Below, one piece after another: positions 1,807-46,740 of a stretch of DNA of 64,000 bases. Source of the DNA: Bidens hawaiensis (Eukaryota; Streptophyta; Magnoliopsida; Asterales; Asteraceae). The notes below the pieces were generated by a model. It saw only the letters and a list, made by a program, of their open reading frames with translations. It made no database searches and was not told the DNA's origin. The stretch spans positions 372,001 through 436,000 of the forward strand of contig JAIQDT010000841.1 in NCBI GenBank assembly GCA_021521415.1, read 5' to 3'. Within the stretch, counting starts at the first letter, position 1. Each line of letters begins with the position of its first letter. A program made the position numbers and the translations under genes.

Positions 1807-1933
1807 AGCGAAGTTGTCAACAAGTTCGCTTAGGCGAACTTGTTGAACAAGCGAAGTTGTTGACAAGTTCGCCTAGGCGAACTTGTTCAACGAGCGAAGT
1901 TACAGACAACTTCGCCTGAGGCGAAGTTGTCGT
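1807..1933. repeat. GCGAAGTT inverted-repeat array in the LTR of A
   Basis: At least seven copies of GCGAA(G/C)TTGT or its reverse complement are arranged as near-perfect palindromes, for example GCGAAGTTGT..ACAAGTTCGC and AGGCGAACTTG..AAGTTCGCCT. The same octamer family recurs in the leader (2388-2625) and in the post-pol spacer (6470-6530 and 6940-7215), but not in the gag or accessory coding regions. It lies just upstream of the LTR TATA box. Confidence 0.85.
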
Positions 1934-2060
1934 GTATTTATGTAACCTACGGGTTTACGGGTTGATAAGTTGGTCAGTGAGTGTTTTGTTTAATCACGTG
2001 TATTTCAGCAAGTCGGTAGACGAGAGATCGAGTCTGTAATAGACGTGTTACAGGTTATAT

Positions 2061-2067
2061 TATATAA
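2061..2067 (+). promoter_or_regulatory. Probable TATA box of A LTR
   Basis: TATATAA lies in an otherwise mixed-composition stretch about 120 bp before the LTR end, as expected for a plant LTR promoter. The assignment is by sequence and position only. Confidence 0.5.
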
Positions 2068-2189
2068 CGTGTTCGTTTGTATCGTGTGTGATTGTCTTAC
2101 GTATTCTACGCTCGTAACTACCTACGCAGGGATTCCGCACCTGCGTATATAGCGATATCCCGTGTAAGATCCGTCCGGGAACCTACAAT

Positions 2190-2201
2190 TGGTATCAGAG
2201 C
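2190..2201 (+). other. Primer-binding site of A
   Basis: TGGTATCAGAGC, two bases after the 5' LTR, is complementary to the 3' end of plant initiator-methionine tRNA. It primes minus-strand DNA synthesis. Confidence 0.95.
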
Positions 2202-42605: not shown

Positions 42606-43713
42606 ATGAATGATGCAACAACAGATTCAATCATTGAGGAACCCGATCTCAGTGATAAAAATCTTGATTCTAATATGTCTACTGATCTAATTGTGCAAAC
42701 TTCCTTTGCTGAAAGGAATCATCCACCTGAAAACATCATTAGGGACTTTAATGAAAGAGTTACAAAAAGTGCATCTGAATCTGCAAACATTTGTTTGTAC
42801 TCCTGCTTCCTGTCCCAAGTTGAACGCAAGAACATTGTTCAAGCTCTACAAGACAATAGTTGGGTGGAAGCAATGCAAGAGGAGTTGTCCCAATTCAGGA
42901 ATTTGCAAGTGTGGGAACATGTAGATAAGCCAAGAGGTAAGAATGCTATTGGAACCAAATGGGTTTTCAGAAACAAAAGAGATGAGAGAGGGATTGTAAT
43001 GAAGAATAAAGCAAGACTAGTTGCACTAGGATGCTTACAAGAAGAAGGAATTGACTTTGAGGAAGTGTTTGTACCAGTGGCAAGGCTAGAAGCAATCAGA
43101 ATCTTCTTAGCTTATCCTGCTTCAAAGAACATAAGAGTATTTCAACTGGATGTCAAATCTGCTTTCTTGAATGGAAAAAATTGAAGATGTGGTGCATGTA
43201 ACTCAACCTCCAGGTTTTGAGGATCCTGATTTTCCAAATAGAGTGTACAAGTTAAATAAAGCTCTATATGGAAAACATCAAGCTCCAAGAGCTTGGTATG
43301 ATGAGTTATCAAACCACTTGCTTTTGAATGGTTTTCAAAGGGGAGCCATTGATAAGACCCTCTTCTACAAGAAAAGAGGAAGATATTTGCTCCTTCTACA
43401 AGTGTATGTAGATGATATCATCTTTGGGTCTACTAATGAACAAATGTGTTTGGAGTTTGAGGAAGTAATGAAGTCCAAGTACTGCATGACCTCCATTGGT
43501 GAAATGAATTTCGTTCTGGGTTTGCAAGTTCAACAAAAGAAGTATGGTATATTCATTCCTCAATCAAAGTATGTGCAAGATATCTTGAACAAGTTTAAAT
43601 GTCAAGACTTGAAGACTGCTTCTACTCCAATGGACACCCATGAGAAGATGATTGCTGATGAAAAGGGCGAGCATGTTGATAAACATGGATACAGATCAAA
43701 GATGGATTACTAA
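42606..43713 (+). pseudogene. pol: Pol of H2: reverse transcriptase, one frameshift
   Basis: WVEAMQEELSQF, GTKWVFRNKRDE, ARLVALGCLQEEGIDFEEVF and VFQLDVKSAFLNG are read in one frame up to about 43175, then a frameshift leads to EDVVHVTQPPGFEDP and the catalytic YVDDIIFGS (43407). The frame closes at 43711-43713 in the RT-RNase H connection. The reverse transcriptase core would copy element RNA; here it is inactivated by frameshifts. Confidence 0.88.
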
Positions 43714-44354
43714 TGTACCTGACTACTGCAAGGCCAGACATTATGTTTGTTGTTTGTGTGTGTGCAAGATTCCAATCAAGTCCAAAGGTGCCTCACATGA
43801 CTATTGTCAAGAGGATTTTTAGATATTTGAAGGGGAAGCGTGATTTGGGGATATGATATCCAAAGAACCATGCCTTTGATCTACTTGCTTACACTGATAG
43901 TGATTATGATGGTTGCAACATGAGTAGGATGTCTACATCTGGTGGACGTCAATTTCTGGGAGATAGGCTGGTGTCATGGCAATGCAAGAAGCAAACCACT
44001 GTGTCAATCTCTACTGCTAAAGCTGAGTACATTGCTGCATCTGCTTGCTGTGCACAAGTCCTTTGGATTCAAAATCAACAGTTGGACTATGGTTTGAATT
44101 TCTTGAACACTCCTATCTTTATTGACAATACTGCTGTTTTGTTCATTGTTAGGAACCCAGTCCAACACTCTAAGACCAAACACATTGAAATAAGACGTCG
44201 TTTCATTAGAGATTGTAGTGAGAAAGGACTTATTGAAATGAAAAGAGTTGATACTAGTGACAACTTGGCTGATTTGTTCACCAAGCCACTGGATAAAACT
44301 AGATTCCACTTTCTCCTAAAGGCTTTGGGAATGATTAACTCTGATGAGATCTGA
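43714..44354 (+). pseudogene. pol: Pol of H2: RNase H
   Basis: Equivalent to 100-726 of H1. A frameshift near 43700, TGG to TGA at 43854-43856 (LGI-stop-YPKN) and intact frame 43920-44354 with AEYIAASACCAQVLWIQ, KTKHIEIRRRFIRD and LADLFTKPLDK. It retains the NQQLDYG residues missing from H1. Confidence 0.88.
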
Positions 44355-45800
44355 TTAATGATGTGTGCTCACTGTGCTAAATGATTATTTTGATGGTCTT
44401 TTGAGTGAAAGTTGTGATGATGTGCTTGATTATGCGAATGGTATTTGCTTATGTGTTTTGAATAACAATTTGTGTGACTTAGGTTTCTATGATACTTAGT
44501 TTTGATGAAGTGAATACTGATGATATATTGATAAGTGTGTTTGCCTATGATTTGAAATGATGAATCTGTGTGGTTATCTGATACTTTTGAATATGTTGGA
44601 TAATAAGATGTGATGATATAATTAGGATAGGATAGACCATGCATAATCTGTCTTGATTGTACATTATGTTAAGTCTGCTTGTGTTAATTGTGTCATTTAT
44701 GTTCTGATTATTCTTTGATTATGTTACTTTTGCTTGTGACAAAATTCTGATTTTGTGATAAAATTGCATGCTCAAATGAATATCTTTCAAGAAAATTTTC
44801 ACAAAAATATTTTTGACAGACTGCGCAAGTTGATGGTGCAGAGATATGATAAGATTATTCAGTTCAAAGCTTTGTAGAAGCTCAAAAATGTCTTCAACGA
44901 AAATTGACCCAACCTTATGGGAAATGATAGTAGATTGATTATTTATGCCAATCATATGAATTTAATAGGCTAAAATGACTGTTAGTGCGGTCATTAATAT
45001 GTATGGTTGTTTTCCATAATGTGTCAAAACTAAGGTGATATAAACATAATAAAAATGTTAAGCTTAATGTGGAAATACATTGTTGAATATGCATGTTTCA
45101 AGATAAATCTCTCCGAATGATAGGCAGAAAAGTGATTACCGAGTCATACACGAGCCTGTTGGTATCTAGTCTCCAAAATGAAACATCTTATGTATATGAC
45201 AAAGAACAAATGTGAGCAAAATTTTTATAATCAATCAAAAGTTGATATATGTTCACAAATTTTGAAAGAAAATGCAAACGTGAGGGTTAATTATAGAATT
45301 ACATAGGTGGAGGCATCAATATAAGTCCTTTAGCATCTTGAATGAAAGGCCTGTAAGTCCGAACTGCATGGCATGTAAGTCCAACGTTCAACCTCAATAT
45401 GTTTGAATTTTTAAAAAAAATTCATAAAGAAAATTTAAATGTTCTGTCATAAAAATATTTTGACTAAATATCAAGGGGTTGAAGTCAATTTGGGGTGATC
45501 TGGGGAAAGCCAAATAAGCTTTGAGAAGAGATATGGGACATCATAATGCAATAAGTGTTATCCATTTTTGTATTATGCAATCTAATTGAACCCTTAATTA
45601 TATCACCAATATGTAGTGAAAGTCATGCTAAGTCTAGACCTACTATTAACCTGCCTGATCAGTCATAATAATGCTGAGAATGAAGCATTGAAAGGTGATA
45701 TAATCAATATGATCCCATGTTGAGTTCTTTTCAAAAAAAAAGAGAAAAATATTTGGAAGGAAATAACTGAAATTTGATCTTATAGTGCACCATTTGATCT
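44355..45800 (+). other. Post-pol spacer of H2 with conserved block
   Basis: No ORF. From about 44700 it parallels H1 1100-1716 plus 10603-11410 without the A insertion, which confirms the A insertion site. Blocks include GCCAATCATATGAATTT, TGTATGGTTG, AAGGTGATATAAAC, ATAGGCAGAAAAGTGATTA, GGCATGTAAGTCC and GGGGTGATCTGGGG-like words. Confidence 0.75.
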
Positions 45801-45889
45801 TAAACTTTGAGATTTAATGAGAAAAATGCTTTATGAAAGGTTTAAGTCAAAAAATGTTGCATTTTACCTTGAATATGTTTGCGTATGTA

Positions 45890-46740
45890 ATTTCGAGTAA
45901 GGTTTGATGTTTTTCAAACTTTCGAGTAAACTTCAGATGTTTTTATTTGAAGTTTATCTCATTCGAGCATACTTGATCCTTATTTGTACTTAAGATAGTT
46001 ATTCATGTAGTATCGAGTACACTTTGATAATTGTTTACTTTCGAGTGAACTTGGCTGTTTAGAAAGTTATATTTATCAAGCAGACTTGATGATTATGTGA
46101 TACTTATATGAATAAACTTTAAATACTTGTTTCGAGTAAACTTGATTGTTTTAGTTGATATGAGTGTTTTTCTAGCATACTTCATTAAATTAAATTGTTT
46201 TTTCTGAAATCATAAGTGTTTTCGAGTAAACTTTGTTTATTGAGCGTACTTGTTTATTTCAGAAAATCACAAGTAATCTTTACTTTCCGAGTACACTTTA
46301 TGCTATGAGAAAACTTTTATATCAAAGGATAACAAGTCTTCTCAAGCATACTTTGGACTTTTGAAGTATTGTCGAGTAAACTCTACTTTCAAGTATACTT
46401 GAGTGAATATGACTTTTTATTTTTATTTCTTAATTTTTCTAAGTCTAATCGAGTAAGGTTAGTAAGTGTAAGGTATTCGAGTAAGGTTGACAATTAGAAA
46501 TATTTCTAAGTTATCACTTTTGGATTCTTCATTGATTCCAAGTAAGGTTGCCTATTTGATGAATTATACTTGATTATTTAACTTGTGATTTAGTTCTCGA
46601 GAAATCTTGTATATTTGAGTAAGCTTACATCATTTTATCCACTTAGTTTATTTTTAATTACTTCAAAAAATTATATATACCTGAACACACTCTGGGTTCG
46701 AGCAAGCTTTTGTAATTGTACTTCATCGAGCAAGCTTTAT
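45890..46740 (+). repeat. TCGAGTAA motif array upstream of accessory promoter of H2
   Basis: About twenty copies of TCGAG(T/C)A(A/C)(A/G)CTT(T/G), for example CGAGTAAGGTTTG (45893), CGAGTAAACTTG (46132), CGAGTACACTTT (46014 and 46287) and CGAGCAAGCTTT (46699 and 46727). They share orientation and position with the H1 array, but the core is CGAG instead of CGGG. The last copy is about 95 bases before the TATA box. Confidence 0.83.

Follow-up and report, generated by a model that had tools for sequence, protein, structure and literature searches.

Introduction

The VANDAL elements of Arabidopsis are Mu-like DNA transposons. In the parts of PMC5735166 and PMC10398659 drawn on here, the VANC21 protein that such an element encodes was shown to bind dense, family-specific arrays of a short word (YAGTATTAY) in the non-coding parts of its own element and to cause demethylation, and the targets are near-uniform in orientation (PMC5735166). 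For Sireviruses, arrays at the long terminal repeat (LTR) and the ENV gene were already described in 2010 (PMC2829016). Here we analyzed a 64,000-nt stretch of the Bidens hawaiensis genome (contig C841, positions 372001-436000; genome 3.47 Gb), called the window below, which is a nest of LTR retrotransposons. Its Sirevirus element A and the relatives H1 and H2 carry family-specific word arrays at their promoters, and the predicted structures of the A and H2 accessory domains have VANC21 as their best match in VIA-align. A preliminary description of the window had reported arrays of this kind and proposed a VANC-like role for the accessory protein, with no mention of the 2010 arrays as prior art.

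The 2010 motifs precede the TATA box in the LTR and are also found ahead of the accessory (ENV) gene; in the cited parts of PMC2829016 all of them are palindromic, 12 of 13 have a CGG-CCG core, and Tnd-1 in the table is without it. Those parts propose no binding protein and mention no leader clusters. In sunflower, an extra 3' open reading frame (ORF) of Athila, a Ty3 element, carries the PF20167 (Transposase_32) domain, is predicted to be nuclear (0.80), and is described as a relative of Athila ORF1 (PF03078); the cited sections of PMC11728184 hold neither arrays nor a comparison with VANC. Anti-silencing in LTR elements is treated only in general terms in the corresponding parts of PMC12844716 and PMC6696364. 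No report of a VANC-like Sirevirus protein or of a Sirevirus anti-silencing protein was found in the consulted parts of the openly licensed literature, preprints not covered.

Results

Word arrays at the LTR and internal promoters

Word counts in each compartment were compared with expectations from an order-1 Markov model; all features below are on the plus strand. The A word (GCGAAGTT/AACTTCGC) was found five times in the 5' LTR of element A (1717-2187, delimited by its TG...CA ends and target-site duplication; words at 1808-1928), 10 times in the gag leader (2389-2622), 14 times in the spacer and five times in the 3' LTR (10133-10602), with 0 to 0.1 expected per compartment. It was absent from the gag, protease-integrase (PR-INT) and accessory coding compartments of A. 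The exact words in the spacer form two clusters: four at 6477-6524, upstream of a TATATAA box at 6542, and 10 at 6937-7206, within the accessory leader. Candidate TATA boxes of the A LTR are a weak TATTTAT at 1935 or a TATATAA at 2061.

The H word, CGRGYANRSTT, occurred 13 times in the H1 spacer, five times in the H1 LTR and 11 times in the H2 spacer, and not at all in the coding compartments of H1 and H2. The H1 spacer array (11503-12503) has a word close to TTTCGGGYANRSTTT and is followed by TATATAA at 12583; in the H2 spacer array (45891-46737) the word is close to TTTCGAGTAAACTTT, and TATAAAA is at 46834. A weight matrix was trained on 24 sites from these two spacers only, which left the LTR as an out-of-sample region. 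The matrix detected 20 forward and two reverse sites in the H1 spacer, 19 and none in the H2 spacer, and 10 forward and five reverse sites in the half of the H1 3' LTR (35963-37139; array at about 36063-36510) upstream of its TATAAAA box at 36789, with 0.1-0.3 expected per strand; the half downstream of the box had no site. The detection of LTR sites by a spacer-trained matrix confirmed the arrays at both promoters out of sample.

The compartment counts and the matrix bear out the preliminary claim of lineage-specific arrays at both promoters, and the patterns proposed for them were too strict. CGGGCA(A/C)(A/G)CTTT matches the window exactly at two places and CGAGTAA(A/G)CTT at four, including one in the H1 LTR. 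The arrays do end upstream of the TATA box in H1, H2 and the first A cluster as had been stated; the two larger A clusters, in the gag and accessory leaders, sit downstream of the promoters. Absence from coding parts held for the elements' own genes with the strict motifs, and a relaxed H matrix gave 1 + 1 sites in the H1 accessory gene and 1 + 1 in the A spacer. A fourth motif assigned to a further relative, F, was recovered: TTCTCGG occurs five times, with variants, in the F leader (56548-56760; 0.12 expected), and the F LTR and spacer lie beyond the window. The gag-pol region of F contains GCGAAGTT once. In the nest of Ty3 elements GCGAAGTT occurs twice (0.7 expected) and CGAGYANRSTT six times (0.3 expected), all six in repeated LTR parts.

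A donor-like CGACTCGGTAAG is identical at 12733 and 46973, downstream of the internal TATA boxes of H1 and H2, which suggests a conserved leader intron. In A, in H1 and in L078, a sister-family copy described below, the accessory ATG is set in AGATATGG. Taken together, the internal TATA boxes, the donor-like sequence and the common ATG context indicate that the accessory gene is probably transcribed from its own promoter, into an mRNA whose leader contains an intron.

Family specificity across genomic copies

Genome-wide, AACTTCGCNNNNGCGAAGTT was found at 6266 places and its reversed pattern at none. Paired H2-type words numbered 134 + 131 (controls 6 + 5) and paired H1-type words 63 + 89 (controls 14 + 6). 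A search with the A accessory gene gave 48,025 first-look candidates, of which 77 were scored, namely the window copy and 76 copies at 94-97% identity; the matched stretch was stop-free in 59 of the 77. The H2 accessory search gave 45,129 candidates and 136 scored loci, all but the window copy at 62-78% identity. For each family 30 copies were fetched, window copy included; these were the best-scoring ones and no random sample, and minus-strand loci were reoriented.

The A word was present at least three times in all 30 A spacers, and none of them held the H word twice or more. In the H2 clade, 29 of 30 spacers had at least two H words and a single one, in locus L060, had the A word. This spacer contains an inserted LTR-like sequence from another Sirevirus family (L060:136-690) that can be aligned to the window only at the A words, and L060 was rejected as an exception to the family rule, since its A-type words belong to the inserted LTR. 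The insert also has near-perfect GGCGAAGTTA...AACTTCGCC palindromes immediately upstream of TATATATATATA. The coding stretches of the fetched loci were free of the words of their own family (A loci, no A word in 50,190 bases; H loci, no H word in 22,581 bases). H words were near-uniform in orientation (201 vs 2 by strand), and A words formed inverted pairs (200 vs 226 by strand in the 30 spacers). Assigning words to accessory genes by coordinates alone was dropped, as two cases were too few to weigh; in these, on C1259 and C1468, an H1-type accessory match follows the H1-type word pair on the same strand after 10.0-10.6 kb, as judged by eye from about 100 of 152 pairs and 150 accessory matches.

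Constraint on the words

The window copy was taken as the reference for 29 other A copies. The resampling counted overlapping 8-mers as independent, and its P values are therefore rough. The 17 A-spacer sites differed at a rate of 0.0152. The other 511 8-mers of the span differed at 0.1072 (P 1e-4), and those bearing CG at 0.0667. The rates were 0.0216 vs 0.1444 in cluster 1 and 0.0118 vs 0.0501 in cluster 2, where CG-bearing 8-mers were equally conserved (0.0155). Sites in the LTR piece, aligned in 27 of 29 copies, differed at 0.0232 vs 0.0758 (P 0.023). The control words TGTT/AACA were unconstrained (P 0.68). In the H2 clade, with 28 of 29 loci aligned and register errors between repeats possible, 11 sites differed at 0.121 vs 0.197 (P 0.0012), and CG-bearing controls at 0.159.

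L078, found with protein P0001, has an accessory domain identical to that of A at 162 of 204 positions (nonsynonymous divergence, dN, 0.151; synonymous divergence, dS, saturated). Its spacer can be aligned to the A spacer from 6380 only in short, mostly word-bearing pieces (best 40 bp), and the stretch ahead of the array aligns to A at 82.6% over 311 bp. It has eight A words, and the order of cluster, TATA box, second cluster and ATG is that of A. The accessory domains of H1 and H2 are identical at 91 of 146 positions and their words differ mainly at one core base (CGGG vs CGAG); for A and H2 the figures are 57 of 186 and the words are unrelated. The fall of word similarity with accessory similarity over these few families fits the covariation that the preliminary description had put forward, and plain common descent could also account for it.

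The accessory protein

In the window copy of A, the N-terminal part of the accessory gene lies at 7274-8968 and the C-terminal part at 8937-10052, in a different frame and unjoined. Sequence and structure comparison place a conserved PF20167-like, VANC21-like domain at about residues 28-262. The H1 gene is split into a 5' part (12969-14698, frame broken and cut by the Ty3 nest; N-domain at 13136-13591) and a 3' part (32793-35797, in several frames, start approximate), ahead of which the ORF listed from 32539 starts within a Ty3 LTR. The H2 N-domain is a 287-codon open stretch (47159-48019) whose end is cut by a Ty3 insertion. The three N-terminal domains are homologous (blastp, 27-62%).

A profile of the A, H, P0001 and P0002 sequences matched nine Tanacetum proteins with an E value of 8.4e-37 (hhalign), and most of the nine bear PF20167 by precomputed annotation, relating the domain to this family. 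The Pfam cut-off of PF20167 (45 bits) was not reached: A alone scored 12.8 bits (E 0.11), and H1 and H2 were unlisted. The stretch 592-702 of P0003, a Tanacetum protein, had 1979 matching proteins, and homolog searches from A, in which the 7993 candidates sharing most words were scored, gave one and four matches; the two named proteins among these are from Tanacetum. Several of the Tanacetum proteins with this domain (P0007, P0010, P0019 and others) are named 'Synaptobrevin, longin-like domain', probably a misannotation.

Selection was estimated from 190 pairs of 20 A copies; of the 30 fetched, 22 were stop-free, and the window copy and L025 were excluded from these. Mean dN was 0.0138 and mean dS 0.1173, a ratio of 0.12, and the accessory protein is under purifying selection. 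Structures were predicted for the A and H2 domains. For both models VIA-align gave VANC21 with DNA as the best match, and VANC21 ranked first in a Foldseek search with the A model.

Architecture of the window

Element A (1717-10602) is flanked by the target-site duplication ATGTA (1712-1716 and 10603-10607), and its two LTRs are 99.6% alike. It is a Sirevirus by its LTR junction with an iMet primer-binding site (TGGTATCAGAGC at 2190), its polypurine tract (PPT; GGGGGAG at 10124, abutting TGTTG) and its gag. The copia-type domains PF14223 gag, zf-CCHC, PF22936 and PF13976 were found in A, and RVT_2 in the pieces of H2 and F. The integrase core, reverse transcriptase and RNase H are missing from the window copy of A, with the break at about 5948. 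The idea that the whole A family is without pol was rejected: in the 29 other copies homology to A starts only at 5948-5959, so the break is not common to them.

A is inserted in the older relative H1, which extends from the window start to 37139, is interrupted by A and the Ty3 nest, and has its 5' end beyond the window; its 3' end shows a PPT-like GGGGTAGAT followed by TGTTGA. The 3' flank of H1 runs on as H2, which a minus-strand Ty3 element interrupts, and F occupies the window from about 56.3 kb onward. The Ty3 LTRs hold 49-bp tandem repeats (18143-18638 and 25265-25760).

About 26,800 PPT-LTR junction matches were counted in the genome (13,157 + 13,625 vs 25 + 33 for the reversed pattern). 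At G000:C1:8826511-8833547, at least nine junctions are repeated in tandem at a spacing of about 878 bp, a satellite-like array from a Sirevirus LTR end. At G000:C1:3560857-3560904, a pair of PPT-like junctions separated by 33 bp recalls the multiple PPTs reported for Sireviruses in the cited parts of PMC2829016.

Discussion

The arrays, their position, constraint and family specificity, the purifying selection on the domain and its best structural match, VANC21, were computed; from these we infer nuclear action, DNA binding, the identity of the bound word and relief of silencing. With moderate confidence, we propose that the accessory protein binds the arrays of its own family at both promoters and relieves their silencing, in a loop like that of VANC and VANDAL. 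In each Sirevirus family here the encoded accessory protein would act in the nucleus, and its N-terminal PF20167-like domain would adopt a DNA-binding fold like that of VANC. This domain would read the short word arrayed at the LTR promoter, the internal accessory promoter and the leaders of its own family, and dense binding would clear both promoters of silent chromatin or keep it away from them. This would allow both the genomic RNA and the accessory mRNA to be made, giving a self-targeting anti-silencing loop in an LTR retrotransposon.

The likeness to VANC21 lies in an element-encoded protein and in dense, family-specific arrays in the non-coding parts of its own element; the one-way H arrays, and the leader, intergenic and terminal positions, match the cited target description in PMC5735166. 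Unlike VANDAL, the elements here are LTR retrotransposons, their words differ from YAGTATTAY, the A words are inverted pairs, which suggests dimer binding, and the reading is drawn from sequence and predicted structure, whereas binding and demethylation were demonstrated for VANC21. Compared to the 2010 Sirevirus motifs the positions agree, but the palindromic CGG-CCG pattern was not found: A has GCGAAGTT pairs without the core, and the H word is directional.

The VANC-like role was named before the structures were compared, and VANC21 as top VIA-align match of either model, the word constraint and the purifying selection speak for it. Several results weigh against it. VANC21 was not among the best 50 of 184 Foldseek rows for the H2 model, the accessory domain has no detectable sequence relation to DUF1985/VANC21 and no DUF1985 Pfam match, and profiles A5 and A4 did not match VANC21 among PDB sequences up to E 10. 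In hhalign comparisons with DUF1985 profiles from the genome (three sequences, or 13 with and without the VANC21 stretch; 60 shuffles each), default-mode scores were 11-18 and the shuffled tops 20.8 and 21.8. The genome carries 19 DUF1985 matches, and the host may thus also have VANC-like genes. According to the cited part of PMC12844716, CG methylation in sunflower SIRE elements drops dramatically between the LTRs and CHG methylation stays high. The agreement with the proposed role is only partial, because VANC21 acts more strongly at non-CG sites (cited part of PMC5735166).

The arrays might instead be read by host transcription factors, different ones in different families, with the accessory protein acting elsewhere, for example in particles or RNA handling. 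In the cited parts of PMC2829016 the motifs matched mainly stress-related host factor sites, with no single common binder, and four Sireviruses without an ENV gene have LTR motifs only (Table 3). The word constraint in A and the H2 clade would fit any binder. This explanation, which we consider unlikely, accounts neither for the tie of linker arrays to the ENV gene (nine elements with, four without; PMC2829016) nor for the VANC21 match. For the binding of accessory proteins to arrays, the ENV-less elements would fit the use of another element's protein in trans, and the OPIE-2 word is described there as resembling that of the ENV-bearing HOPIE.

The inverted pairs of A words, and the CpG islands bounded by motif clusters in PMC2829016 (cited parts), would also suit arrays that work through cruciforms, RNA hairpins or CpG-island-like DNA with no word read by a protein. 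The near-uniform H words could not pair with each other, and transcripts predicted from the TATA boxes would not include the H arrays or A cluster 1, which are all upstream of these boxes; both points make this improbable. It is quite improbable that the arrays are functionless tandem repeats spread by slippage, with a family-specific look from common descent. VANDAL target repeats turn over by tandem duplication as well (PMC5735166, cited part), and the H1 and H2 arrays are alignable in places; yet the words are more conserved than the sequence between them in A and the H2 clade, occur in separate parts of one element, and are retained in L078 where the remaining spacer is lost. A retrovirus-like envelope, with arrays that merely drive its expression, is suggested by the place of the gene after pol and by its name ENV in Sireviruses (PMC2829016, cited parts), but is highly improbable. 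By hydropathy only, the best 19-residue values were 1.51 for the A N part and 0.66-0.78 for two H1 pieces, with no strong hydrophobic segment in A or in the two H1 pieces; the 1.68 of H2 falls inside the folded domain and the 1.95 of the ORF from 32539 in its Ty3-derived start. The A protein has the basic clusters RKRSRR and KKRRI, and none of 65 matches in a viral structure library was convincing (best E 0.32).

What is new here is the hypothesized link of the accessory domain to VANC. A broader and more tentative possibility is that the PF20167 accessory proteins of Sireviruses and of Ty3 Athila form a second VANC-fold branch, that DNA transposons and LTR retrotransposons have the anti-silencing strategy in common, and that array elements without the gene are parasites in trans. 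The structural match to VANC21 opens the function of the accessory protein to direct test. If the proposal is true, this abundant lineage would have a retrotransposon-encoded, sequence-specific anti-silencing system, and two old puzzles, the role of the Sirevirus 'envelope' gene and that of the LTR motifs described in 2010, would have one answer.

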